A model generated the notes under the pieces. That model saw nothing but the letters and a program-made list of their open reading frames with translations. It searched no databases and was not told the origin of the DNA. DNA of 64,000 nucleotides from Chiridota heheva (Eukaryota > Echinodermata > Holothuroidea > Apodida > Chiridotidae). Below are positions 3,771-64,000 of the stretch, piece by piece; the first letter of the stretch is position 1, and each line of letters opens with the position of its first letter. Location: assembly GCA_020152595.1 (NCBI GenBank), contig JAIGNY010000077.1, positions 539,501 through 603,500 of the forward strand, written 5' to 3'. The translations under genes were made by a program, and so were the position numbers.

Positions 3771-3803
3771 ATAATGCCTGAGGAGAGCTCAAAAAGTATG
3801 AAA

Positions 3804-5366
3804 CCAGAACCAAAAGGTTTTGTGGTTCCGATGTTTTTTTTTTTCTCCCTTTATAAACTGATTGAATTGCAAAATTTGTACTTACTGTCATGTCATTGCA
3901 TATCATAAAATATTTGTTCCATATTTATTCACAAGTCACACCACCATGCAATGCAGATCAATAAAAATGTTGACATTAGCATTTGCACAATAATTAACAA
4001 CATTATCATAGCAAGTATGATGCAAAAATGGTTGCTCATTTATTTCATTTCAAGAATTTGCAATTAAGTCATTACTCATTAATATTCATGACAATGATGA
4101 CTTCATCACCACAACATTAGAACAAATATGTACAGACCATGACCCATCTGTGTACATATAGCATAAATCTGATATATTTTTCATGAAATAGAGTATGGTG
4201 TTTACATCATAGCACTTTCACATAAAGCCATACCAACCATGCATACTAATGACATCTGCTGACAACATAAGCATGTGTACAATAACCAACAAAATTATCA
4301 TGCCCAATATGATGCAAAACAGAAATACAGTTGCTCATTTATCACTTTTTCAAAAGTTTCACTGTATTAGCCCCACCCACTTATCAATATGCATGATATC
4401 ACCACCAAAAAACAATAGAGCACATCTACAGACCATGGGCTACCTGTGTACAAAATATGACATAAATCCAGTTTACCATTCTTGAGATACTGTTTTTACA
4501 AGCTCTTTTAAGCAAAATCATGTATTAAGCTCCGCCCACTACGCATATTAATGTAATTTGATGTTTTTACATCATGAACATGTCACCAGCTAACATCAAA
4601 ATATCCCAAATCAATAAGAAACAAAAGAGACATGCAGTGTTAAAATATTAACATTTCAAGATTTTTACATTACGCCCCACCTACTCATCAATATGCATGA
4701 TATCACCACCGAAAATACTACGGAACATCTACAGACCATGGGCTATTTGTAAACCAAATATGGCAAGAATCCAGTTTACCATTTTTGAGATACTGTATTT
4801 ACAAGATAATTTCAGCAAAATAATATTAAGCCTGCCCACTATGCATATTAATGAAATTTAATGTTTTTACACAATGAACATGTACACACCAGCTAACATC
4901 ATGACTGTACCAAATATGAGACAAAACAGACAAAACAGAAATACAAACATTTCAAGATTTTTACATTTTACATTAATATGCCATTATTAATATGATATCA
5001 CCCTCCTCTACCCTGTGTACTACTCACTTCTTTAATATGCGTAGCATATTGTATTCAAATAGCCTTCACCATTTACAAAATTTTACATGGCTCTGTGCCA
5101 TCTAACCTGTGTGAAATAATACGTGAGCACATCTACAAACCAGTTGGGCATTTTTATCTGTGTATGGTCTACAAATACTGTTGCCTGACACAAAATGTTT
5201 AAAAACATTCCTTTTTCAAAAACTTTCTTGTTGAGTGTACTGTTGTTGTTTAAGATATTGTTTGTTTTGACGAGCTGGCCATTACATACACACACACATA
5301 CACCCACATATACACACACCATAATGACCGCATAGATTCCTGATGCTATCGCATCAGAACCAACAA
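3804..5366. mobile_element. Non-autonomous inverted-repeat element, ~1.56 kb, copy 1
   Basis: The left end carries GTGGTTCCGATG and the right end the complementary GCATCAGAACCAAC, giving short terminal inverted repeats. The interior is a degenerate tandem of ~303-bp units, recognised by AAGCC-CGCCCACTATGCATATTAATG phrases near 3916, 4225, 4528 and 4829 and intervening ATGCATGATATCACCACC phrases. A second copy with the same order lies at 52750-54145. No transposase frame. Confidence 0.78.
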
Positions 5367-10625: not shown

Positions 10626-11814
10626 ATCGTTGTCATCACCATTACCATAATCCTCATCACAATAGCCATCATCATAATGTTCACCATCGCATGCACAACA
10701 ATCTCCACAATGATCATTATCATAATTGTCTTGTAGTAATCATCATATTCATTATTGTTTCCTACCATAATTATAATTTATTCCCACCATATTTATCATC
10801 ACCAAAATAATCATAAAATCATCATTATCATTATTATAATAGAAATCACCATAGTCATCATCAGAATCATCATCATCATGAATATTAATTACCATAATCA
10901 TTATCATCATCACATTCATCACCACCATAATTAACACCACCAAAATAATCATTAATCATTAATATAATCCTCATCACCATCATAATCATATTCATCACCA
11001 TCATAATCATATTCATCACCATCATAATTATCATCATCAAAATAGAGAAACCAATCAATGTCATCATCATCATCATTGTTATAATCCTCATCACCATATG
11101 CATCATCAGAATCGTCATCATCATGAATATTTTTCACCATACACAACAATCTTCAAAATAATCATCATCACTATCATATTCATCATCACCATAACATCAT
11201 CACCAAAATAGAGAGAAAACAAATCATTGTCATCATCAGAGTCATCATCATTGTTATAATCCTCATCACCATAGTCATCATCAGAATCGTTATCATGAAT
11301 ATTTATTTTCATGCACAACAATCTTCACCATAAACATTATCATCATCATATTCATCACCACCATAATATCATCACCAAAATAAAGAGAAACAAATCATTG
11401 TCATCATCAGAGTCATCATCATCATCATTGAATATTTATCATCATGCACAACAATCTTCATCATAATCATTATCACTGATGATCATATTATCATGCACAA
11501 CAATCTTCACACTCAACACCACCATAATTAATATCACCAAAATAATCATCAATCATTACTATAATCCTCATCCCCATAGTAATGCGACATCAAAATCATC
11601 ATGATCATGAATATCATCACCATACACAACAATCTTCACCATAATCATTATCATAAACATTCATCACCACCAGAATTATCATCACCAGAGAGAAACAAAT
11701 CATTGCTGCATCGTCAATAGTCATAATCCTCATCACCATATAGTCATCATCACCAATGACCATGTACAATAACCATCATCATTATCAACATCATGGTTAT
11801 GACTTTCATCCCCA
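10626..11814. repeat. Degenerate (ATC)n array, second block
   Basis: ATC/CAT-rich sequence with recurring ~200-bp blocks marked by AATAGAGAGAAA-CAAATCATTG and CACAACAATCTTCA phrases. No coding support. Confidence 0.9.
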
Positions 11815-12066
11815 AAATTACGATCGTTATCACCAACAGAACCAACATAAACCTGAAAAAACAAAATTTGAAGAAGAAAAAAAGTTGTGTGAAAGATCAA
11901 TCTGACAGTTAATGAAAAATTCAAAATTGAGCTTAATTTCTAATTTCCACTTTCCATCAAACCCGTCACAACTATATATCTCTCTAATTCATCAAGTTAC
12001 AAGACGACCAAATAAAGTCTTCAACATCTGAAAGATGAGCCACAAAGGAGAGAAACAAATTATCGT
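11815..12066. repeat. ~250-bp duplicated segment, copy 2
   Basis: Diverged partner of 10381-10625. It ends 35 bp from the CAMTA donor at 12101, so the duplication reaches close to the exon without including it. Confidence 0.85.
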
Positions 12067-14220: not shown

Positions 14221-14637
14221 TTAAAGGGGATAAAAAAGTTTGCCTGTTTCTTTAATTAATATATAATATGATAGAGATAATAATTATCTGAAGAAATTTC
14301 CCATTATACAAAATAAATTTAGCATATATTTTGCATCTGTTTAAAACATTAATTCTGTCAATATAAACTTACATGGGAGTAGCCATTTTGTTACTACTTC
14401 CTCTAAAAATATTAATGTATTTTTTAGAATCTATTTCAAATTTTCTGTCTAAGAAATATTCGTCTTCAAATTTTTATTTGTATATGCTATTAATGATTCA
14501 AGCACTTAAAACTTCATGTCAAAGCATTTCGGAAAAAAGGTTTCAAAGAGAGATGGGGTTGTAACAGTCGTTGGTTTAATTTGTAATTCTTTATCATATA
14601 TTAAGCTAGAATGTTTGACTTCATATGTCTACTTTAA
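14221..14637. mobile_element. MITE family A, ~417 bp copy
   Basis: Begins TTAAAGGGGA and ends GTCTACTTTAA. The interior is related, in reverse orientation, to 27008-27596 (shared TATCATATATTAAGCTAGAA-type phrase). No open frame of note. Confidence 0.72.
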
Positions 14638-21612: not shown

Positions 21613-22104
21613 TAATGCAATATTTCTGTAAAGGTTCTCCACAAATATCCCAGACAATGATTTAACTTTTCCTTATCATATAAGATGAAATTTAACATGC
21701 ATTGAATAAATCAGGGGTGCAGCCCTGCAGCCGATCGCAGAAGGAAAACCTTCCTGAGGCCATAAAATAGCAGTCTCCTACAGTACCCAGTCCTGAGGCT
21801 AAATAAAACTGTCAAGCATGTTAAGGTCATCGCCTTAAATTCTTAACTTTCTTAACCTGTTTAGCTTATTCTGTATTTGGAAGGTTGTGCAACCCCCATC
21901 AACTCCTCTCGGTACACCCATGAATAAATTAACTGCTGATTTTGCTAATAAAGTTGTTCATCAAGTGTCTGCATTAATACTTATCAGAGCCAGCTATTAT
22001 AATATACCACATGAAAAAGTAATGAGACAGATTTTTCGCAAACTCAATTCTGCTCCTAGGCAAAGTCAGGAAGACATCTAGGCCTACAATGAAGAGATGA
22101 ATTA

Positions 22105-23084
22105 TTAAGCGCATTCTCACTTGTCTCTGGATCACGATCCCCTGTTGATCAATGATTGAAGGAAAAACTGTCATGGGTTCTTATTGAAGTGATCAGACCC
22201 ACTGCAGAGGATCTGATCACGAGGCACAAGCACTCAGACCCACTGCAGAGGATCTGATCACGAGACACAAGCACTTAGACCCACTGCACAGGATCTGATC
22301 ACGAGGCACAAGCACTCAGACCCACTGCACAGGATCTGATCACAAGGCACAAGCACTCAGACCCACTGCACAGGATCTGATCACGAGGCACAAGCACTCA
22401 GACCCACTGCACAGGATCTGATCACGAGGCACAAGCACTCAGCCTCACTGCAGAGGATCTGATCACGAGACACAAGCACTCAGACCCACTGCACAGGATC
22501 TGATCACGAGGCACAAGCACTCAGACCCACTGCACAGGATCTGATCACGAGGCACAAGCACTCAGCCTCACTGCAGAGGATCTGATCACGAGACACAAGC
22601 ACTCAGACCCACTGCACAGGATCTGATCACGAGGCACAAGCACTCAGACCCACTGCACAGGATCTGATCACGAGGCACAAGCACTCAGACCCACTGCACA
22701 GGATCTGATCACGAGGCACAAGCACTCAGACCCACTGCACAGGATTTGATCACGAGGGCACAACTGCAGAGGATCTTGAAAATTATCTGTGCTAAATAAT
22801 TTCAAGGATTATTGAGCACTCAGACCCACTTTGCACTCAGACCCACTGCACAGGATTTGTTGTTGTTGAGGATCTGATCTCATCAAGTTGAAATTATGTT
22901 TGGTCAAGGTTCTGCACTCACATTTTTGTTGTTGTTGAGAATCTCATTGTGGATCTAGTCCCTGTTCCGGATCAAGCGAATGTGATCAGATCAGGTGACC
23001 ATTTTCACGGTAAAAAACATGGTGCATCTGATCGCCTGCAGTAGGTCTGATCGCGAGCTCGTTTTCCAGTGAGAACACACTCAA
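22105..23084. mobile_element. MITE family C, copy expanded by an internal minisatellite
   Basis: Terminal inverted repeats TTAAGCGCATTCTCACTTG (left) and complement of CAGTGAGAACACACTCAA (right). The copies in the tandem units are about 380 bp; this one is 980 bp because a 41-bp internal segment has been amplified. Confidence 0.82.
22208..22760. repeat. 41-bp minisatellite, 13 complete units
   Basis: Units begin AGGATCTGATCACGAGGCAC and end CCCACTGCAC. Each contains the palindromic TGATCA. Thirteen units fit exactly from 22208 to 22740. Two variant types (GAGACACAAG and GCCTCACTGCAG) recur every few units, showing larger-block duplications. Confidence 0.96.
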
Positions 23085-23239
23085 ACAGTTGATTGCTTCA
23101 TTATTAATAACTATCACAGATGACGGGATGTGGAGTCTTATGTGATGATTGTACAGTGCGGAAACAACACTTGAGGTGTGTGCTTTTCAACCAATATTGG
23201 TTTGAATTAGAGCTAACTACCCACTCTGGCAAACCATTT

Positions 23240-26689: not shown

Positions 26690-27007
26690 CTCACCAAAAA
26701 TGTAACATTGCATAAGGCTTTGCGTTAGGATAGCAAAGGATCATGGGAAATACCACAAAATTGCAGCTTCTATGTAGCAAAATGTTTCCATTAATAGGAA
26801 CATTTATGTTTCCATTAATAGGCATGCTGCCGGAATGGTTTATAGCAAAAGTTCTGATAGCTTAAGAACATCATGAATAATTATAGATCCCACAGTATAA
26901 TAATTACCTGTTGTCAAAAGGTATAGTTGAGATTTACAGTATACGTTCAGGGTATTTTTACCAACAGCGCTTGAGAAGTACACACAGATAAGCACAATGC
27001 AATAAAG
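26690..27007. repeat. ~310-bp flanking duplicate, left copy
   Basis: Matches 37235-37545 from TGTAACATTGCATAAGGC through GCTGCCGGAATGGTTTA to CACAATGCAATAAA. The two copies sit on either side of the whole tandem-unit region. Confidence 0.9.
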
Positions 27008-27596
27008 TTAAAGGAGACATACAGTTAAATATTCTAGCTTGATATATGATAGAGAATCAAAAAATAAACCAACTACCAAAAATCCCATCATAAAATCATA
27101 TTCTATTCTCAAGTTATCCAAGTTGAAGTTGTAACATGGACGCTGCCATTTTGTGTTAAAATCATGCCAATTTGAACAATGACATAATTTGCCCTTTTCA
27201 TGTGCTAGCACACACAATGTATTTCTTTAGAATTCTCTTTGAAATTTGTTTTCCAAAGTGCTTTGACATGAAGTTCTAAGGGCTTGAATCATTAACATCA
27301 AATACAAAATCCATAGACCCATGCAAAGGAAAAATCATTTCTTAGAAGTTAGAACATTTAAAATAGATTATAAAGAAATACATTAATATTCTTATCTGTA
27401 CTGGGTGTCTGACATGATTGACGTCTTTTATTTGAAGGGGTATGAACAAAATGGCCACTCCCATTTAAGTTTATAATGACCGAAATAATATTTCAATAAA
27501 TTGGAAAAATATGTGCTAAATTGTTTTGTACTATGTAAAGTTTCTTCAGATGACTTCTAATTGTAAAGAAAAAGCCAGACTGTATGTCCCCTTTAA
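27008..27596. mobile_element. MITE family A, complete copy (589 bp)
   Basis: Starts TTAAAGGAGACATACAG and ends CTGTATGTCCCCTTTAA, terminal inverted repeats matching at 16 of 17 positions. Relatives at 1-131 and 14221-14637. It has no coding capacity. Its right-hand 60 bp are also the start of each tandem unit. Confidence 0.88.
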
Positions 27597-28175
27597 TATA
27601 AGGTAAAGTTGTTTTCTAAACCTAGGAGACGGCAATGGGAAGCATACAGCATAAACTGTACACTGTTAAAATAATCAAGACTACTTTATCATCAAATATA
27701 GAGAAGAAAAAAAAAAATCACTCTCCTTTGATTTTGAAACATGCAGGAAAATATCAAAACTGATGTTAACATGAACAATAACAGGGAATACTTACAACTG
27801 ATCACAATAATCAAACTGTACAAAAACAATCTACTTAACATAGCAACTACAACAGTAAGCAGTCCTGAAGCTAAATACAACTGTCAAGCATTAAAAGGTC
27901 ATCGCCTCAAATTCTTAACTTTCTTAACCTGTTTAGCTTATTCTGTATTTGGAAGGTTGTGCAACCCCCATCAACTCCCCTAGGTACACCCATGAATAAT
28001 TAAACTGCTGATTTTGCTAATAAAGTTTCTCTCCAAGTGTCTGCATTAATACTTATCAGAGCCAGCTGTATAATACACCACATGAAAAAATAATGAGACA
28101 GATTTTCCGCAAACTCAATTCTGCTCCTAGGCAAAGTCAGGAAGACATCTAGGCCTACAATGAAGAGATGAATTA

Positions 28176-28555
28176 TTGAGCGCATTCTCACTTGTCTCCG
28201 GATCATGATCCCCTAGTGATAACCTTGATCGATGAATGAAGGAAAAACTGTCACGAATTCTCATTTGAGCACTCACACCCACTGCAGAGGATCTGATCAC
28301 GAGGCACAAACAAGTTGGAAATTAAGAACTAAATCATTTCTAGCTTACTGATTTGCACTCACACACTTTTTGTTTCTTGAGAATCTCATCCGTGGATCTA
28401 ATCCCTGCTCCGGATCATGATCCTACCCTCGCCTATATTCAAGATAAAGTGACTGTGATCAGATCCGGTGACCATTCTCACGGTAAAAAATGGTAGATCC
28501 GATCGCCTGCAGTGGGTCTGATCGCGAGCTCGTTCTCAAGTGAGAACACGCTCAA
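28176..28555. mobile_element. MITE family C in unit A (380 bp)
   Basis: Terminal inverted repeats TTGAGCGCATTCTCACTTG and AAGTGAGAACACGCTCAA. Rich in GATC-containing palindromes such as TGATCA, CCGGATCATGATCC and CGATCG. Confidence 0.82.
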
Positions 28556-28883
28556 ACAGTTGATTGCTTCATTATTAATAACTATCACAAATGACAGGAT
28601 TTCGTGATGATTGCTCAGTGCGGAAACAACACTTGAGAAGTTTGTGCTTTTAAACCAAAGCAAGTATATTGAAGGGAATAAAGCGAGAAAAAAATGATGG
28701 CTAAAGTGCTTCATTTCACCCATATAACAAAAGTTGGAAATGGAAATGATACGATCTGGGGTTGCACGTTAACCTCAAGCCTGGGTTTATTCATCCACAA
28801 ATGATGAATGAACCAACTTGGGGTCGTTTGTCTGACAATGTTTAAATACATTCAAGTCTAAGATTTATACATTCAGTTTATGG

Positions 28884-29110
28884 TCTATTTTCAAAATAAA
28901 TTTCTATCGTAAAAATGGACTCGATTAGAGCATTCACATTGCCATCATACTCCTTTTTGGTAGTTGAAACATCTCTGTACAAGAACAGCTAACTACATTT
29001 TTGTTTGCTACTCTGGAACAGGGTGTATTAAGTACCCAAAAAGGAGTAAACGGTAATGGGAAAGTTTTACTCAGTCCATTTTGACAAGAGGAATCCATTT
29101 TGAAAATAGA
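28884..29110. mobile_element. MITE family D in unit A (227 bp)
   Basis: Long terminal inverted repeats of about 55 bp: TCTATTTTCAAAAT at the left and ATTTTGAAAATAGA at the right, extending into AAAATGGACT / AGTCCATTTT. It sits between TACATTCAGTTTATGG-type phrases related to the 43-bp minisatellite. Confidence 0.85.
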
Positions 29111-29117
29111 AGCTGTT

Positions 29118-30352
29118 GATACATTCAGCTTATGGTTTATGTATTCAGTATTAAACAGTTAATACATTCAGCTTATGGTTTATGCATTCAGTATTAAACA
29201 GTTAATACATTCAGCTTATGGTTTATGCATTCAGTATTAAACAGTTAATACATTCAGCTTATGGTTTATGTATTCAGTATTAAACAGTTAATACATCCAG
29301 CTTATGGTTTATGTATTCAGTATTAAACAGTTAATACATTCAGCTTATGGTTTATGTATTCAGTATTAAACACTTAATACATTCAGCTTATGGTTTATGC
29401 ATTCAGTATTAAACAGTTAATACATTCAGCTTGTGGTTTATGCATCAGTATTAAACAGTTAATACATTCAGCTTGTGGTTTATGTATTCAGTATTAAACA
29501 GTTAATACATTCAGCTTATGGTTTATGCATTCAGTATTAAACACTTAATACATTAAAGCTTATGGTTTATGCATTCAGTATTAAACACTTAATACATTCA
29601 GCTTATGGTTTATGCATTCAATATTAATCACTTAATACATTCAGCTTATGGTTTATGCATTACATTCAGTATTAATCACTTAATACATTCAGCTTATGGT
29701 TTATGCATTCAGTATTAAACAGTTAATACATTCAGCTTATGGTTTATGCATTCAGTATTAAACAGTTAATACATTCAGCTTATGGTTTATGTATTCAGTA
29801 TTAAACACTTAATACATTCAGCTTATGGTTTATGCATTCAGTATTAAACAGTTAATACATTCAGCTTATGGTTTATGCATTCATTCAGTATTAAACAGTT
29901 AATACATTCAGCTTATGGTTTATGTATTCAGTATTAAACACTTAATACATTCAGCTTATGGTTTATGTATTCAGTATTAAACAGTTAATACATTCAGCTT
30001 GTGGTTTATGCATTCAGTATTAAACAGTTAATACATTCAGCTTATGGTTTATGCATTCAGTATTAAACACTTAATACATTCAGCTTATGGTTTATGCATT
30101 CAGTATTAAACACTTAATACATTCAGCTTATGGTTTATGCATTCAGTATTAAACACCTAATACATTCAGCTTATGGTTTATGCATTCAGTATTAAACACT
30201 TAATACATTCAGCTTGTGGTTTATGCATTCAGTATTAAACAGTATTAATACATTCAGCTTATGGTTTATGCATTCAGTATTAAACAGTTAATACATTTAG
30301 CTTATGGTTTATGTATTCAGTATTAAACAGTAAATACATTCAGCTTATGGTT
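29118..30352. repeat. 43-bp minisatellite in unit A, about 29 units
   Basis: Unit TTAATACATTCAGCTTATGG + TTTATGCATTCAGTATTAAA + CAG. Variants are TGTATTC versus TGCATTC and CAGTT versus CACTT. Two half-units share CATTCAG, suggesting an older ~21-bp origin. Confidence 0.97.
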
Positions 30353-30989
30353 TATGTAAAGTTTCTTCAGATGACTTCTAATTGTAAAGAAAAAGCCAGA
30401 CTGTATGTCCCTTTAATATAAGGTAAAGTTGTTTTCTAAACCTAGGAGACGGCAATGGGAAGCATACAGCATAAACTGTACACTGTTAAAATAATCAAGA
30501 CTACTTTATCATCAAATATAGAGAAGAAAAAAAATCACTCTCCTTTGATTTTGAAACATGCAGGAAAATATCAAAACTGATGTTAACATGAACAATAACA
30601 GGAATACTTACAACTGATCACAATAATCAAACTGTACAAAAACAATCTACTTAACATAGCAACTACAACAGTAAGCAGTCCTGAAGCTAAATACAACTGT
30701 CAAGCATTAAAAGGTCATCGCCTCAAATTCTTAACTTTCTTAACCTGTTTAGCTTATTCTGTATTTGGAAGGTTGTACAACCCCCATCAACTCCCTAGGT
30801 ACACCCATGAATAATTAAACTGCTGATTTTGCTAATAAAGTTTCTCTCCAAGTGTCTGCATTAATACTTATCAGAGCCAGCTGTATAATACACCACATGA
30901 AAAAAATAATGAGACAGATTTTTCCAAACTCAATTCTGCTCTAGGCAAAGTCAGGAAGACATCTAGGCCTACAATGAAGAGATGAATTA

Positions 30990-31367
30990 TTGAGCGCATT
31001 CTCACTTGTCTCCGATCATGATCCCTAGTAATAACCTTGATCGATGATTGAAGGAAAAACTGTCACGAATTCTCGTTTGAGCACTCACACCCACTGCAGA
31101 GGATCTGATCACGAGGCACAAACAAGTTGGAAATTAAGAACTAAATCATTTCTAGCTTACTGATTTGCACTCACACACTTTTTGTTTCTTGAGAATCTCA
31201 TCCGTGGATCTAATCCCTGCTCCGGATCATGATCCTACCCTCGCCTATAGTTAAGATAAAGTGACTGTGATCAGATCCGGTGACCATTCTCACAGTAAAA
31301 AATGGTAGATCTGATCGCCTGCAGTGGGTCTGATCGCGAGCTCGTTCTCAAGTGAGAACAGGCTCAA
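30990..31367. mobile_element. MITE family C in unit B
   Basis: Same element as 28176-28555, with a few one-base deletions and GAACAGGCTC at the right end. Confidence 0.82.
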
Positions 31368-31696
31368 ACAGTTGATTGCTTCATTATTAATAACTATCAC
31401 AAATGACAGGATTTCGTGATGATTGCACAGTGTGGAAACAACACTTGAGAAGTTTGTGCTTTTAAACCAAAGCAAGTATATTGAAGGGAATAAAGCGAGA
31501 AAAAAAATGATGGCTAAAGTGCTTCATCTCACCCATATAACAAAAGTTGGAAATGGAAATGATACGATCTGGGGTTGCACGTTAACCTCAAGCCTGGGTT
31601 TATTCATCCACAAATGATGAATGAACCAACTTGGGGTCGTTTGTCTGACAATGTTTAAATACATTCAAGTCTAAGATTTATACATTCAGTTTATGG

Positions 31697-31927
31697 TCTA
31701 TTTTCAAAATAAATTTCTATCGTAAAAATGGACTCGATTAGAGCATTCACATTGCCATCATACTCCCTTTTTGGTAGTTGAAACATCTCTGTACAAGAAC
31801 AGCTAACTACATTTTTGTTTGCTACTCTGGAACAGGGTGTATTAAGTACCCAAAAAAGGAGTATAACGGTAATGGGAAAGTTTTACTCCAGTCCATTTTG
31901 ACAAGAGGAATCCATTTTGAAAATAGA
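31697..31927. mobile_element. MITE family D in unit B
   Basis: Matches the unit A copy almost exactly, with a few added bases (for example CTCCCTTTTT and GGAGTATAACG). Confidence 0.85.
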
Positions 31928-31935
31928 AGCTGTTG

Positions 31936-33157
31936 ATACATTCAGCTTATGGTTTATGTATTCAGTATTAAACAGTTAATACATTCAGCTTATGGTTTAT
32001 GCATTCAGTATTAAACAGTTAATACATTCAGCTTATGGTTTATGCATTCAGTATTAAACAGTTAATACATTCAGCTTATGGTTTATGTATTCAGTATTAA
32101 ACAGTTAATACATCCAGCTTATGGTTTATGTATTCAGTATTAAACAGTTAATACATTCAGCTTATGGTTTATGTATTCAGTATTAAACACTTAATACATT
32201 CAGCTTATGGTTTATGCATTCAGTATTAAACAGTTAATACATTCAGCTTGTGGTTTATGCATCAGTATTAAACAGTTAATACATTCAGCTTGTGGTTTAT
32301 GTATTCAGTATTAAACAGTTAATACATTCAGCTTATGGTTTATGCATTCAGTATTAAACACTTAATACATTAAGCTTATGGTTTATGCATTCAGTATTAA
32401 ACACTTAATACATTCAGCTTATGGTTTATGCATTCAATATTAATCACTTAATACATTCAGCTTATGGTTTATGCATTCAGTATTAATCACTTAATACATT
32501 CAGCTTATGGTTTATGCATTCAGTATTAAACAGTTAATACATTCAGCTTATGGTTTATGCATTCAGTATTAAACAGTTAATACATTAAGCTTATGGTTTA
32601 TGTATTCAGTATTAAACACTTAATACATTCAGCTTATGGTTTATGCATTCAGTATTAAACACTTAATACATTCAGCTTATGGTTTATGCATTCAGTATTA
32701 AACAGTTAATACATTCAGCTTATGGTTTATGTATTCAGTATTAAACACTTAATACATTCAGCTTATGGTTTATGTATTCAGTATTAAACAGTTAATACAT
32801 TCAGCTTGTGGTTTATGCATTCAGTATTAAACAGTTAATACATTCAGCTTATGGTTTATGCATTCAGTATTAAACACTTAATACATTCAGCTTATGGTTT
32901 ATGCATTCAGTATTAAACACTTAATACATTCAGCTTATGGTTTATGCATTCAGTATTAAACACCTAATACATTCAGCTTATGGTTTATGCATTCAGTATT
33001 AAACACTTAATACATTCAGCTTGTGGTTTATGCATTCAGTATTAAACACTTAATACATTCAGCTTATGGTTTATGCATTCAGTATTAAACAGTTAATACA
33101 TTTAGCTTATGGTTTATGTATTCAGTATTAAACAGTAAATACATTCAGCTTATGGTT
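31936..33157. repeat. 43-bp minisatellite in unit B, about 28 units
   Basis: The order of variants follows array A, including the rare ACATCCAGC and GCATCAGTATT units at corresponding positions. Confidence 0.97.
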
Positions 33158-33802
33158 TATGTAAAGTTTCTTCAGATGACTTCTAATTGTAAAGAAAAAG
33201 CCAGACTGTATGTCCCCTTTAATATAAGGTAAAGTTGTTTTCTAAACCTAGGAGACGGCAATGGGAAGCATACAGCATAAACTGTACACTGTTAAAATAA
33301 TCAAGACTACTTTATCATCAAATATAGAGAAGAAAAAAAAAAATCACTCTCCTTTGATTTTGAAACATGCAGGAAAATATCAAAACTGATGTTAACATGA
33401 ACAATAACAGGGAATACTTACAACTGATCACAATAATCAAACTGTACAAAAACAATCTACTTAGCATAGCAGTTGACTACAGTAAGCAGTCCTGAAGCTA
33501 AATACAACTGTCAAGCATTAAAAGGTCATCGCCTCAAATTCTTAACTTTCTTAACCTGTTTAGCTTATTCTGTATTTGGAAGGTTGTGCAACCCCCATCA
33601 ACTCCCCTAGGTACACCCATGAATAATTAAACTGCTGATTTTGCTAATAAAGTTTCTCTCCAAGTGTCTGCATTAATACTTATCAGAGCCAGCTGTATAA
33701 TACACCACATGAAAAAATAATGAGACAGATTTTCCGCAAACTCAATTCTGCTCCTAGGCAAAGTCAGGAAGACATCTAGGCCTACAATGAAGAGATGAAT
33801 TA

Positions 33803-34182
33803 TTGAGCGCATTCTCACTTGTCTCCCGATCATGATCCCCTAGTAATAACCTTGATCGATGATTGAAGGAAAAACTGTCACGAATTCTCGTTTGAGCACT
33901 CACACCCACTGCAGAGGATCTGATCACGAGGCACAAACAAGTTGGAAATTAAGAACTAAATCATTTCTAGCTTACTGATTTGCACTCACACACTTTTTGT
34001 TTCTTGAGAATCTCATCCGTGGATCTAATCCCTGCTCCGGATCATGATCCTACCCTCGCCTATAGTTAAGATAAAGTGACTGTGATCAGATCCGGTGACC
34101 ATTCTCACAGTAAAAAATGGTAGATCTGATCGCCTGCAGTGGGTCTGATCGCGAGCTCGTTCTCAAGTGAGAACAGGCTCAA
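33803..34182. mobile_element. MITE family C in unit C
   Basis: Same element as in units A and B, most similar to B (shared GAACAGGCTC end). Confidence 0.82.
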
Positions 34183-34511
34183 ACAGTTGATTGCTTCATT
34201 ATTAATAACTATCACAAATGACAGGATTTCGTGATGATTGCACAGTGTGGAAACAACACTTGAGAAGTTTGTGCTTTTAAACCAAAGCAAGTATATTGAA
34301 GGGAATAAAGCGAGAAAAAAAATGATGGCTAAAGTGCTTTATCTCACCCATATAACAAAAGTTGGAAATGGAAATGATACGATCTGGGGTTGCACGTTAA
34401 CCTCAGGCCTGGGTTTATTCATCCACAAATGATGAATGAACCAACTTGGGGTCGTTTGTCTGACAATCTTTAAATACATTCAAGTCTAAGATTTATACAT
34501 TCAGTCTATGG

Positions 34512-34742
34512 TCTATTTTCAAAATGGATTTCCATCGTAAAAATGGACTGGAATAAAGCATTCACATTGCCATCATACTCCCTTTTTGGTAGTTAAAACA
34601 TCTCTGTACAAGAACAGCTAACTACATTTTTGTTTGCTACTCTGGAACAGGGTGTATTAAGTACCCAAAAAAGGAGTAAAACGGTAATGGGATGGCTTAA
34701 CTCCAGTCCATTTTGACAATAGGAATCCATTTTGAAAATAGA
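34512..34742. mobile_element. MITE family D in unit C
   Basis: More diverged from A and B than they are from each other; its left repeat ATTTTCAAAATGGATTTCCA is closer to its own right arm. Confidence 0.85.
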
Positions 34743-34748
34743 AGCTGT

Positions 34749-36305
34749 TGATACATTCAGCTTATGGTTTATGCATTCAGTATTAAACAGTTAATACATT
34801 CAGCTTATGGTTTATGCATTCAGTATTAAACAGTTATTACATTCAGCTTATGGTTTATGCATTCAGTATTAAACAGTTAATACATTTAGCTTATGGTTTA
34901 TGTATTCAGTATTAAACAGTTAATACATTCAGCTTATGGTTTATGTATTCAGTATTAAACAGTTAATACATTCAGCTTATGGTTTATGTATTCAGTATTA
35001 AACAGTTAATACATTCAGCTTATGGTTTATGCATTCAGTATTAAACACTTAATACATTCAGCTTGTGGTTTATGTATTCAGTATTAAACAGTTAATACAT
35101 TCAGCTTATGGTTTATATATTCAGTATTAAACAGTTAATACATTCAGCTTATGATTTATGCATTCAGTATTAAACAGTTAATACATTCAGCTTATGGTTT
35201 ATGCATTCAGTATTAAACAGTTAATACATTCAGCTTATGGTTTATGCATTCAGTATTAAACAGTTAATACATTCAGCTTATGGTTTATGTATTCAGTATT
35301 AATCAGTTAATACATTCAGCATGGTTTATGCATTCAGTATAAACAGTTAATACATTCAGCTTATGGTTTATGCATTCAGTATTAAACAGTTAATACATTC
35401 AGCTTATGGTTTATGCATTCAGTATTAAACAGTTAATACATTCAGCTTATGGTTTATGCATTCAGTATTAAACACTTAATACATTCAGCTTATGGTTTAT
35501 GTATTCAGTATTAAACAGTTAATACATTCAGCTTATGGTTTATGCATTCAGTATAAAACAGTTAATACATTCAGCTTATGGTTTATGTATTCAGTATTAA
35601 ACAGTTAATACATTCAGCTTATGGTTTATGTATTCAGTATTAAACAGTTAATACATTCAGCTTATGGTTTATGCATTCAGTATTAAACACTTAATACATT
35701 CAGCTTATGGTTTATGTATTCAGTATTAAACAGTTAATACATTCAGCTTATGGTTTATGCATTCAGTATTAAACAGTTAATACATTCAGCTTATGGTTTA
35801 TGCATTCAGTATTAAACAGTTAATACATTCAGCTTATGGTTTATGTATTCAGTATTAAACAGTTAATACATTCAGCTTATGGTTTATGCATTCAGTATTA
35901 AACAGTTAATACATTCAGCTTATGGTTTATGTATTCAGTATTAAACAGTTAATACATTCAGCTTATGGTTTATGCATTCAGTATTAAACAGTTAATACAT
36001 TCAGCTTGTGGTTTATGCATTCAGTATTAAACAGTTAATACATTCAGCTTATGATTTATGCATTCAGTATTAAACAATATATTCAGCTTATGGTTTATGC
36101 ATTCAGTATTAAACACTTAATACATTCAGCTTGTGGTTTATGTATTCAGTATTAAAACAAATAATACATTCAGCTTATGGTTTATGCATTCAGTATTAAA
36201 CAGTAAATACATTCAGCTTATGATTTATGTATTCAGTATTAAACAGTTAATACATTCAGCTTATGGTTTATACATTCAGTATTAAACAGTTAATACATTC
36301 AGCTT
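34749..36305. repeat. 43-bp minisatellite in unit C, about 36 units
   Basis: Same 43-bp unit but with a different variant order from arrays A and B, and mostly CAGTT-type units. Confidence 0.97.
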
Positions 36306-36660: not shown

Positions 36661-37234
36661 ATGGAACAATCATAAGTTTCTCTTACCTTCGATAAACCAA
36701 GCTGTCCGACAAATTAAGATTTCAACATACTGAGTGTATAGATCACCAACTGCATGGTAAGAACATGGATTTATAACATCCCTGGGAAGATCAAAAGATA
36801 TCTCTCCCAAATTACAGAGCATTCTGCTATTGGGGTATCATTAGGCAGGAAATGACATAATTGAAAGCAGTGTTCATAAAAGCTAGCTTCTGTTTATCAA
36901 TCTGAAAGCGTGCCTATTACTAGGAACATGAATAACACACGAGAATAATGAAGTGCACAGCCACATTGTTCAGATGTTGCAATAAAATGGCAAAGTTTCT
37001 AATTTAGGAACTTTAAATATTAAACATCATTGGTTTGAAAAACATTTGAATTTTCAAAATGGCTGTTTCTCGCCTAGCTTTATTGTCTATCATTTATAAT
37101 ATTTCGAAAACGGCGTGGTGAACATATCTGGGAGTGGGAAAGTTTTAGCCATGACAATAATGAAGGTATTTTCATAAGTTTTAAGTTTTCCCTAGCAAAG
37201 ATATATTTCCCAGACGTATTTCAAATTTGAAAAA
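36661..37234. other. Intronic sequence between repeats
   Basis: Non-repetitive. It contains a splice-like segment at 36687-36749 on the minus strand that I rejected as a CAMTA exon on phase grounds. Nothing else is supported. Confidence 0.45.
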
Positions 37235-37545
37235 TGTAACATTGCATAAGGCTTTAACGTTAGGATAGCAAAGGATCATGGGAAATATGACAAAACTGCA
37301 GCTTACATGTAGCAATATGTTCCCAATAATAGGAACATTTATGTTCCCATTAATAGGCATGCTGCCGGAATGGTTTACAGTAAAAGTTCTAATAGCTTAA
37401 GAACAACATGAAATATTATGATCCCACAGTATAATAATTACCTGTTGTCAAAAGATATTTAACTCAAGTTGAGAGTTGCAGAATATGTTCAGGGCATTCT
37501 TACCAACAGCACTTGAGAAGTACACACAGATGAGCTCAATGCAAT
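37235..37545. repeat. ~310-bp flanking duplicate, right copy
   Basis: Partner of 26690-27007, more than 10 kb away, same orientation. It runs straight into a half-copy of MITE family D at about 37555-37610 (TTCTATTTTCAAAATGG...). Confidence 0.9.
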
Positions 37546-37911
37546 AAACTTAAAACAGCTTCTATTTTCAAAATGGATTTCTATTGTCAAAATGGACTGG
37601 AGCAAAACTTTCCCATTCTTTAATAAAACATCAATATTGTGATAACAATTACCCCAAAATCCTTCCACGAACAAAAAACCACTTTACTCTCGGAGTACAG
37701 AGGCATTGCGTAATACTACAACTTTATACTTAATGGCTTATGATGTTCAGACAACAAAAAACATAAGATGTTGAATCCTCAAACATCGTGTTAAGTTTCT
37801 TCAAAAAGAATACTGAATCTAAATTTTTATATCAAACAGTCATTAATTGACAAATCACTAACAAAACTATGAGGTTTTTTCATTATTTTGTTCATTAAGA
37901 AAGTCTAAAAG

Positions 37912-38630
37912 TGACAGACTGGTTGCTACAGACTGGTTGCGACAGACTGGTTGCGGCAGACTGGTTGCGGCAGACTGGTTGCGGCAGACTGGTTGCGGCA
38001 GACTGGTTGCGGCAGACTGGTTGCGGCAGACTGGTTGCGGCAGACTGGTTGCGCAGACTGGTTGCGCAGACTGGTTGCGGCAGACTGGTTGCGGCGCAGA
38101 CTGGTTGCGCGCAGACTGGTTGCGGCAGACTGGTTGCGGCAGACTGGTTGCGGCAGACTGGTTGCGGCAGACTGGTTGCGGCAGACTGGTTGCGGCAGAC
38201 TGGTTGCGGCAGACTGGTTGCGGCAGACTGGTTGCGGCAGACTGGTTGCGGCAGACTGGTTGCGGCAGACTGGTTGCGACAGACTGGTTGCGCAGACTGG
38301 TTGCGCGGCAGACTGGTTGCGGCAGACTGGATTTGCGCAGACTGGTTGCGGCAGACTGGTTGCGGCAGACTGGTTGCGGCAGACTGGTTGCGGCAGACTG
38401 GTTGCGACAGACTGGTTGCGACAGACTGGTTGCGACAGACTGGTTGCGACAGACTGGTTGCGACAGACTGGTTGCGACAGACTGGTTGCGACAGACTGGT
38501 TGCGACAGACTGGTTGCGACAGACTGGTTGCGACAGACTGGTTGCGACAGACTGGTTGCGACAGACTGGTTGCGACAGACTGGTTGCGACAGACTGGTTG
38601 CGACAGACTGGTTGCGACAGACTGGTCTTG
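37912..38630. repeat. 14-bp satellite array, about 51 units
   Basis: Unit GACTGGTTGCGACA or GACTGGTTGCGGCA. The GGCA variant fills 37955-38270 and 38300-38400; the GACA variant fills 38405-38630. Several units with two- or four-base slips lie between. Since 14 is not a multiple of 3, each strand's three frames all read the same repeating 14-residue peptide with no stop, which explains the long overlapping open frames. No promoter or host-protein similarity supports coding. Confidence 0.97.
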
Positions 38631-47049: not shown

Positions 47050-47205
47050 TGCCTGAGAATGAGCTCGCGATCAGCGCATGCGATTAGATCTACCGATTGT
47101 GAATTAAACCTCCCTGGATCTGATCACAGACACTTGATCTTGATCTAAGGTGAGGGTGGGATTGTGATCCAGATCAGGCAATCAGATCCACCAATAACTG
47201 ACGTG
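47050..47205. mobile_element. MITE family C fragment, reverse orientation
   Basis: GAGAATGAGCTCGCGATCAG, then GATTAGATCTACC and GGATCTGATCACAG follow the same order as the reverse complement of 28440-28555. Confidence 0.78.
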
Positions 47206-47397: not shown

Positions 47398-49660
47398 TGT
47401 AGTTTGGTTTGGTTTGGTGATGTTTAACGGCACCGCAACAGAGTCAAATGTGCCAAGTAGGTGTTAAAAATCTAAGGTGCAAGAGTTAGGACAGAGAGAA
47501 AAGGGAGAGGGAAAGGAAGGAGAGAAAAATAGAATAAATAATAAAGGAGCAAATAAAGGTTATAAAAAGGAAGGAAGGATAGGATGGGAGGATAGAAAAG
47601 GAGGAAGTGTGGGTAAGGATTGGATCAGGTGGAATAAGTTACTATTGCAGAGGAAAGTGATGGTGTTGGAGGAGGGATTGTTCTTGAAAAGATCAGAATT
47701 GGAGGTGGAGGGGGAGAGGAGTGATCTGGAGTTCAGATATTAGGGACAGGTTATAAGGATATGCTTGATCGAGAGATCAGTGTTGCAAGTAGGGCAAAGA
47801 TGTGTAGGAGAACCTGAAAGGAGGTAGCAGTGGGTGAGAAAGGAGTGGCCGATGCGGGTGACAATAACTTCCTCTCTACGATTGTGACCGTCCAGGGGAG
47901 GGTTGGTCCCGACTTTGGGGTTAATAGTGTGAAGCTTGTTACTAGTCTCATATTTATTGGAATCTTGCCAGGTCTTACTGGGGTAGCTGAAAATGGTGAA
48001 GCAGAAGCCAAGAGTGCAGAATAAGGATAGGTGAAATGTGGTTCGACAGAGTGTTGTTGGCGGCTCTGTCAGCCCTCTCGTTGCCAGGGATGCCGACGTG
48101 GCTGGGGATACAGAAAATGATAATTTTCTTCCCTGAGGAAGAGAGAGCATGAACTTTGTTTAGGCTTTGTAAAATTAGTGGATAGACAAGAGCATGTTGA
48201 GGATGCCATGCGAGAATGGAATTTGAGTCAGAGAAGATGATGCAGCAAGGCCAGAAGGAGACTTCTGCAAAGTTTAAAGCTAGGAGGATAGCCTTTGCTT
48301 CAGCAGAGTTGATTGAGGCTCCATCAGGTAACTTTGAAGAAAGGGTGAGACCGGGACAGGTGGCAACGGGTAACGAGGAGCCTTCCCGTGTGGAGCCGTC
48401 GGTGAAGAGGAAGGAGTAGTCATGGAAAATGTCTACCGAGTTGGCAGTATTTGGAGCAAAAGAAGGTTGGGTTGTGAAGAGCTTTGTGTACAAGGAAAGA
48501 CCAAGGAAATCTTGCGGAGGAGGGATAACCCAGTTGGGAATGGAAGGATAGTGTGCCTGGCTATTGAAAAATGATGATGTTGGCTTTGGGGAAATAAAAT
48601 GCATCCGGATATTGAAAGGTGGGGGGATGCGGTTGTTGAAATTGAAGAGGTTGGTGAAGAAAAGAGAGCAGGTGGAATGGAAACATGGGTTCCATTGGTC
48701 AGTGAGGATGTGAAGAGTAAAGGAAAGACCGGCCCTGGTGCACCTGGGGAGTTCATTGGCCTCTACGTGAAGACTGGTGATGGGGGTGGTTTGGGTGGCG
48801 CCAAGGCAGAGCCTTAGGGCAGTGTTTTCGATGAACTTGATGTGCCTCAAGTAAAGATAGATGAAGTTGTAGTAGTCCAACTTAAATCTAAAAAGGGAGC
48901 GATATAAGGTGAGCAAAGTGAGACAATTGGCTCCCCAGTCAGTGCTGGAGAGGACCTTCAGGAGATTAAGGGTTTTGTAACAGTTGGTTTTGAGGGTGTT
49001 GATGTGGGGGAGATAGGACAGATTAGAATCAAGAGTGATTTCAAGGAAACGAGAACTATCTTTACTGGGAAAGATGGAATCTTTGAGATGGACATTGGGA
49101 CGAAGGAAGAAAGAGTTGCTTTGTTGAAATGAATGAAACAGTTTTGTCTTTTGAAAAATTAAAGCTGTTGGTGTCACTCCAATGACCTAAGTTGTCAAGG
49201 CATTTTTGAAGATTACTTTGAAGAGTTTGAAAGCATGGAGAGGACAAGAAAAGGCAAAATTGTCAACAGAGGGAGAGCAGTTGATGTTGGGTGAGAGAGC
49301 TTTGGTGATGCTGTGATTTTGAGGACAAAAAGAGATGGGGAGAGAATTGCTGCCTTGGAGAACAACCAGGTGTTGCGTATACCTTTGAGAATAGGTGTTA
49401 CCTATGCACACCCTGCAATGGCTAGAATGGAGATCATTCTGGATGAAGGTTGTGAAGGTTGGAAGGAGACCTCTGAGACCAGAGGAGTAAAGGGCCCTGA
49501 GGACACCACACTGCCAGGTGGTGTCAAAGGCCATTTTGAGGTCAAAGAAGATGGAGATGGTGTGGTGATTTTTGATGAAGGCTTCATGGACATAGGATAT
49601 CTAGTTTTAGCTAGTATAGAGAATGGGCTTATTCGGGAAGAATATACAGAAATAGGGTAG
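47398..49660 (-). pseudogene. LINE with RT, RNase H and zinc motif (I-group-like), near-continuous frame
   Basis: Minus-strand, 5'-truncated. RT motif A FFDLKMAFDTTW near 49535-49565 is followed by a degraded motif C (SVDNFAF near 49240-49260, where a Y-x-D-D would be expected). A 400-codon frame (47975-49177) covers the RT thumb, then RNase H: FTDGSTREGSS, SINSAEAKAILLAL, IIFSDSNSIL and IPSHVGIPGNERADRAA. A shifted frame (47740-48150) carries the C-terminal zinc motif LCPTCNTDLSIKHILITC. The 3' end is a CCAAA-type tail at 47398-47418. The domain order is the same as in the element at 17854-19720, but it is a different family. The lost Asp of motif C and the frameshifts make it inactive. Confidence 0.9.
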
Positions 49661-52560: not shown

Positions 52561-52749
52561 CTTTAAATGTGAGATGGAAATCATTCTTTGGGAATGTAAA
52601 TATCTCGTTATTTTTACCTACATTCATTATTTGACATTTGGATTTTTTTTTTGGTTGTATGAGTAAATAATTCAAATGAAATTCAAATATAATAGTAAAT
52701 TCACCATAGAATGATTTTAACCAGGAAAAAGTACACAAAAAGTTAACCA

Positions 52750-54145
52750 GAACCAAAAGGTTTTGTTGTTCTGATTGCTTTTTCATAATTGATTTGCAAA
52801 TTTGTATTAACTGTCATCATGTCCTTGCATATCATGAAATATCTATTCCATGATATTTATTCATAAACCACACCCACCATACAGATCAATAAAAATGTTG
52901 ATAACATTAGCATTTGCAAAATAATTAACAACATCATCAAAGTAAAGATGATGCAAATATGATTGCTCATTTATCCTATTTTCAAGAATTTGTCAATAAG
53001 CCCCACCTACTCCTAATAGCATTCATGACATCACTACCACAACATTTAGAACATATGTACAGACCATGACCCTTCCGAGTACCACATATAGACTAACATC
53101 CGATATACCATTTATGTTGTTTACACCATTTAGTACTTTCACAATAAGCCACACCCACCATGTATATTAATGACATCTGTTGATAACATAAGCATGTTTA
53201 ACCAACAAAATTATCATGCCCAATATGACGCGAAATGGACATACAGTTGCTCATTCATCAATTTTTCTCAATTTTCACTTTAAGCTCAACCACTTATTAC
53301 TATGCATGAATCACCACCACAAACATCAGGTCACATCTGCAGACCATGAGCTATCTGTGAACCATACATGATGTGAATCTAGTTCATAGTTTGGGATATA
53401 CCGTGTTTACTTGCACTTTTTGTTTACAATATCAATTTAAGCCCCGCCCACTATGCAATTTAATGAAATTCACCGTGTTTATACTATGAAAACATACACA
53501 CTAGCTAACATCATTAGTATAACAAATATTAAACAAAACAGACATATGATTGTCAAAATAAAAGCATCTCAAGATTTTTCTATTTAGCCCCGCCTACTCA
53601 TTAATATGCATGATATCACCAACAAAAACAAATATAGAGCACATCTACAGACCATGGGCTATCTGTGCACAAAATATGACATGAATCCATTTCACCATTC
53701 TTGAGATACCGCGTTTACAAGCAAGATATTTTCAGGAAAATCATATTAAGCCCCGCCCACTATGCATACTAATGAACTTGAAAATTTTACTTATGAACAT
53801 GTACATACCAGCTAACATCATAAGTATACCAAATGAAACAAAACAGACATATAGTTGTTAAAATATGAACAATTCAAGATTTTTACATTAAGCTCCACCT
53901 ACTAATCAATATACATGACTTCACAGCATCAAAAACAATAGGGCACATCTATGGACCATAGGCTATCTCTTTACCACATATGACATGAATCCAGTGTATC
54001 GTTCTTGAGATATCACATTTACGAGCTGGCCGTCACACACATACATCATACACACCTACACACACACCATCATGATGTTCACACCTACACACACACCATC
54101 ATGACCGCATAGGCTGCTGATGCTATTGCATCGGAACCAAAAACA
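52750..54145. mobile_element. Non-autonomous inverted-repeat element, copy 2 (~1.4 kb)
   Basis: Same structure as 3804-5366: left end CCAAAAGGTTTTGTTGTTCTG, right end CATCGGAACCAAAAAC, internal ~300-bp units marked by AAGCC-CGCCCACTATGCA near 53145, 53440 and 53748, and a CACACACC-rich tract before the right end. Confidence 0.78.

Positions 54146-62419: not shown

Positions 62420-64000
<1,581 letters not shown>

Follow-up and report, generated by a model that had tools for sequence, protein, structure and literature searches.

Three head-to-tail copies of a non-coding segment, units A, B, and C, stand in the assembled sequence of the window (the whole 64-kb stretch of DNA analysed here), and the middle copy is a mosaic of its neighbours. 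As read from the assembled bases, B has the structure A-C-A, in which a C-type tract of roughly 0.4–0.9 kb lies within an otherwise A-type unit. Polarised sites are present in all three blocks of this mosaic, the joint between units carries a short match, and the minisatellites of A and B have nearly the same order of variants. The best natural account is tandem duplication with unequal exchange and gene conversion, to which we assign a probability of about 0.55. The phenomenon is of a well-known kind and is an ordinary outcome of exchange between repeats.

The triplication agrees with the original prediction of a three-unit macro-tandem. One 23-base motif opens all three units (at 27532, 30353, and 33158), units B and C can be aligned to unit A over the whole length, and self-BLAST finds identities of 97.9% between A plus B and B plus C and of 96.8% between A and C. 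The window is rich in AT and in repeats, has zero N, and looks like eukaryotic DNA. Its wealth of repeats brought decapod crustaceans to mind, and two papers on penaeids (PMC7878876, PMC6341167) report simple sequence repeats above 23%; we claim no host on this basis. No gene is recognised in the unit, and a near-match search of a plasmid collection with 27532–29100 returned no matches. A direct repeat (26696–27012 and 37230–37554, 88.7% identical, about 10.5 kb apart) flanks the entire array.

Table 1. Features of the array and its outgroups in the window; coordinates are window positions.
Feature	Position	Strand	Description
Unit A	27532-30352	+	2821 bp
Unit A, parts in order			5' part, GATC-rich inverted-repeat element, MITE-like element D, 43-bp minisatellite
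Unit B	30353-33157	+	2805 bp; mosaic unit (variant table, minisatellite order)
Unit C	33158 to about 36317	+	longest minisatellite (37 units), then right flank
GATC-rich element	28176-28555		19-nt inverted ends, 89% complementary; aligned copies in B and C
MITE-like element D	28884-29110		38-nt arms, 84% complementary
43-bp minisatellite of unit A			29 units, the last one partial
A/B joint	30345-30364	+	minisatellite to unit start, 4-6 bp microhomology (TATG or TATGTA)
Joint word			TTATGGTTTATGTAAAGTTTC
A-type cluster, left part of B	30662-30667	+	A coordinates 27846-27851; apparently derived; O1 (at 21763-21828) matches C
C-type tract of B	31030-31528	+	A coordinates 28218-28715; at most 27852-28777
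Suspected low-quality consensus	28687-31022		14 A- or B-odd indel events plus 4 length differences of minisatellite A from B
Outgroup O1	21763-23194	+	diverged relative of 27836-28658; 41-bp minisatellite at 22193-22763
Outgroup O3	37554-37617	reverse	right-part polarisation
Outgroup O4	47054-47191	reverse	middle-part polarisation

Aligned three ways over the 1.62 kb that precede the minisatellite, the units show 56 variable columns. Four A-odd columns at 29043–29047 were dropped, as we take A to differ there twice in length by one base, and the B-odd substitutions at 27961, 28107, and 29048 were kept out of the 32 informative sites, which comprise 21 C-odd and 11 A-odd substitutions. With the 29043–29047 columns set aside, all 11 A-odd substitutions fall within 28218–28715 (A coordinates), while the C-odd ones lie at 27838–27851 (four, beside one indel), at 28712 (one), and at 28778–29142 (16). 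Across the 498-bp tract 28218–28715, B differs from C by one substitution and from A by 11; over the other 1111 bp, A and B differ by the three B-odd substitutions. Uniform divergence of B from both neighbours, which the original prediction had named as counter-evidence, is not seen. The C-like tract of B covers at least 28263–28621 and at most 27852–28777.

These positions refine the predicted mosaic, of which the mosaic nature and the right switch stand and the restriction to one switch does not. B and C had been said to share bases that A lacks in the left part, and the words listed for this (CCTATAGTTAAG, GTAGATCTGATC, GAACAGGCTC, and GCACAGTGTGG) are indeed present in B and C and absent from A. 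The sharing is confined to 28218–28715: the three units have no substitutions in 27532–27837, and A equals B in 27838–27851. The claim that A and B agree against C in the right part is confirmed by the 16 C-odd substitutions there and by the minisatellites, in which A and B carry the same unit at 23 of 29 places and the 37 units of C follow a different order. Likewise, the switch expected near 28715–28775 is found at about 28715–28778. A second switch, left of 28218, comes on top of the single A-like/C-like change that plotting the alignment had been expected to give.

Two switches account for 31 of the 32 informative substitutions and leave one unexplained, compared with five for a single switch. 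B therefore shares a tract with one neighbour and both flanks with the other, the left flank consisting of one cluster read against one outgroup. Chance was assessed by 200,000 shuffles of the 32 informative substitutions, with neighbours merged at 15, 30, or 60 bp (20, 14, and 9 sites left). The A-C-A excursion has p = 5e-6 (the floor of the test) unmerged, 0.0012 at 15 bp, 0.035 at 30 bp, and 0.33 at 60 bp; for the runs test, the corresponding values are 3e-5, 0.0048, 0.086, and 0.50. Under the coarse 60-bp merging, the excursion is non-significant.

A rival history would need one event, either unequal crossing-over in an array of two units or a single duplication with a shift, yielding a middle unit with the left part of C and the right part of A, with the left cluster arising later as a change private to C. 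One switch at 28621–28712 explains 27 of the 32 substitutions and 18 of 20 after 15-bp merging, where one switch leaves two sites unexplained and two switches leave one. The outgroup O1 speaks against this history: at three of the four left-cluster substitutions (27846, 27847, and 27851) its state is that of C, and it also possesses the base at 27848. A and B would then share the change, and an origin private to C was rejected on these grounds, though O1 equals A and B at 27838. We consider a single event unlikely, and the least probable of the accounts weighed here. The original prediction had proposed that minisatellite A and the left part of C were duplicated together in one step, which would make the left of B C-type throughout; the A/B-shared bases at 27846–27851 contradict this if no further event took place. 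We retain exchange between misaligned repeats as the likeliest natural cause and hold the single event proposed for it to be improbable.

Polarisation of the variable sites gives each block of B its own relationship. Since O1 matches C at 27846–27851, A and B appear to share a derived cluster there, as judged by this one outgroup, and B consequently would have two switches. In the middle block, O1 equals A against B and C at 28263, 28482, 28549, and 28621, and O4 equals A at 28440 and B/C at 28482, so that 28482 has one outgroup for and one against. States derived in B and C are thus found at 28263, 28549, and 28621 (O1), at 28440 (O4), and at 28482 (O1, not O4), and A is derived at 28236, 28500, and 28615; the polarised set holds eight of the 11 A-odd sites, with 28218, 28438, and 28715 outside it. 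For O2, the multiple alignment was poor beyond the first ~20 bases and local alignment was relied on instead. Right-part polarisation covers seven positions or stretches of the C-odd sites. Derived states common to A and B occur at 28898, 28899, 28922, 28928, and 29088 (O3 and the opposite arms of the element), and C carries the derived state at 28905 and, judged by O3, also at 29062–29068, a stretch where O3 sides with A and B while the element's opposite arms seem nearer to C. On both flanks, derived states link A with B, and in the middle they link B with C, a pattern that exchange would leave and that supports it.

Divergence between A and C is uneven along the unit. Their substitutions number 0 in 306 bp, 4 in 14 bp, 1 in 366 bp, 12 in 498 bp, 10 in 325 bp, and 6 in 100 bp; counted as events, with the left cluster taken as one and 28712 assigned to the right part, they number 2 in 686 bp, 11 in 498 bp, and 17 in 425 bp (chi-square p = 4e-5). 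This unevenness suggests more than one event, and probably more than one exchange acted, in an order that admits more than one reading. Because B differs from C by one substitution in the tract and from A by three outside it, replacement of the middle of B by C-type sequence is the one-event account of the mosaic and the one with the fewest events. The converse, in which the middle of A rather than that of B was replaced by an unseen copy, may also hold, but an exchange between B and C would still be needed to explain one substitution in the 498-bp tract next to 16 counted in the following 425 bp.

How the first duplication may have formed is suggested by the joints. The B/C joint at 33158 is identical to the A/B joint, with the minisatellite ending in ...GGTT followed by TATGTAAAG, and the copies are thus head to tail with the same joint, as in a tandem duplication. 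TATG is common to the minisatellite unit and the unit start, and the match extends to TATGTA for the minisatellite variant with GTATTC. A joint by microhomology would be a simple origin of the first duplication, and a match of 4–6 bp could also be chance. A diverged locus on the reverse strand (14286–14551) aligns to 27234–27551, which is 20 bp across the left edge of A, and has a further short, weak 35-bp match at 27564–27597. As this locus aligns across it, the left edge of A (27532) looks like the original edge. The same overlap, short as it is, led us to set aside 27532 as a transposon end.

In the preferred account of duplication, exchange, and conversion, a non-coding segment of ~2.8 kb would have been tandemly duplicated when a unique site was joined to its own 43-bp minisatellite via the 4–6 shared bp. 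The copies would then have diverged, a third unit would have arisen through unequal exchange or copying, and B would have gained its C-type tract, for which gene conversion from C is the simplest route. What we infer from the assembled pattern is that conversion was the cause, in which direction it ran, how the events were ordered, and that B is present in the genome. Against this account stand the left switch, which depends on one cluster, possibly a single mutation event, and on a single outgroup, the non-significance at 60-bp merging, the possibly fortuitous match at the joint, and a patch of indels of the kind expected from an assembly fault.

This patch extends across the A/B joint. Outside the minisatellites, 14 indels are A-odd (5) or B-odd (9), and all 14 lie within 28687–31022, contiguous over the unit boundary. 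They cover 1092 of the 4733 unit bases, a concentration with a Monte Carlo p of 5e-6 (the floor of 200,000 trials); the events were hand-listed from the alignment, and the C-odd indel at 27848 was excluded from the test. This fifteenth indel sets C apart, lies outside the patch, and is by O1 a loss common to A and B. Among the 14 events are 13 losses and one gain, and by eye 13 of 14 fall in one-base runs. Losses in one-base runs are a usual signature of uncorrected long reads, and we know of no biological cause for such an indel-rich stretch. In A, the patch starts 28–91 bp before the interval of the right switch (28715–28778), and in B it ends 8 bp before the first C-type site (31030), the left switch lying anywhere in 30668–31030. 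Counted in unit coordinates, A is clean up to 28687 and B is clean from 31022 onward (A 28210), which gives an overlap of 477 bp, in a part where A and B are ~2% divergent (11 of 498 bp), as two haplotypes might be. The stretch 28687–31022 may thus be an unpolished or gap-filled piece of the assembly.

Assembly error had been named in the original prediction, and the run of indels across the A/B joint makes it a more serious alternative. The genome would then have fewer units, probably two, and 28687–31022 would have been filled from noisy long reads or from the other haplotype, adding both a unit and the mosaic look. Judged by the sequence, an extra unit that is false or that mixes haplotypes competes seriously with a natural history; we hold it to be a substantial possibility and the less probable of the two. 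It would explain the error-like stretch at the joint, the losses in one-base runs, and the haplotype-like overlap of the clean ends. It fits poorly with the left part of B, which is A-type at 27846–27851; a plain copy of the left of C would be C-type, so that a haplotype difference would be needed as well. Moreover, comparison of the A and B minisatellites shows three substituted columns and four gains in A (1, 5, 4, and 2 bases), for the most part of a non-homopolymer type, and the window has no N at which a gap would be marked. PMC9516828 describes false duplications that arise from divergent haplotypes or read errors, are sometimes joined by incorrect gap filling, and are marked by half or very low read depth and discordant pairs.

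Both inverted-repeat elements of the unit have the terminal inverted repeats of MITEs. At the edges of the GATC-rich element (28176 and 28555), inspection by eye of the window sequence found no clear duplicated flank of the kind that a target-site duplication would leave. The tract of B covers most or all of this element, and the element might have promoted conversion in a young three-unit array caught mid-exchange, an idea to which we give very little credence. Its relative O1 contains ~14 copies of a 41-bp unit similar to a piece of the GATC-rich element (28268–28312), a fragment of the element having been expanded into a minisatellite.

Other repeats are scattered over the window. The loci 3790–4967 and 52736–53889 are related (~76%), and two-copy tandem repeats of 303 bp and 305 bp occur at 4366–4975 and 53437–54026. 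A 14-bp minisatellite of CAGACTGGTTGCGG (~51 copies, 37915–38626) is open in several frames on both strands. At 62420–64000, a GAT microsatellite of 527 copies with 99% matches reaches the window end and has a diverged match on the other strand within 10633–11838. Five of the 40 listed open frames were searched against Pfam, and one matched: a 403-codon frame on the minus strand (47975–49186) with an RNase H domain (PF00075, E = 8.4e-08), probably a retroelement remnant. This search is uninformative on the array.

The array chiefly calls for caution, as a mosaic repeat unit can be either biology or an assembly fault. The internal check used here, in which indels are limited to one stretch over a repeat boundary, pinpoints the sequence that needs re-examination before a history is read from it. 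If the three units are true, they offer a modest case of exchange between repeats, with two breakpoints and with outgroups nearby.

Tandem duplications reshaped by unequal crossing-over and gene conversion are a general known system. The array resembles them in tandem order, in the short match at the joint, in its mosaic middle copy, and in the minisatellite within the unit, and differs in having no recognised gene in the unit, two switches, and a third unit known from the assembly alone. With the false (heterotype or homotype) duplications treated in PMC9516828, it has in common near-identical neighbours, an error-rich stretch at the joint, and haplotype-like divergence in part; unlike in those cases, there is no gap, and that paper classifies such duplications by reads and depth, while the comparison made here is one of sequence. 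A third comparison is with Tetris of Drosophila virilis, a foldback or MITE element with internal tandem repeats, as described in PMC4079207. In contrast to Tetris, the 43-bp minisatellite of the units lies beside the inverted-repeat elements and not inside them. The likeness, which implies no kinship, is that of an inverted-repeat element with a relative (22193–22763) in which a piece of the element is tandemly repeated.
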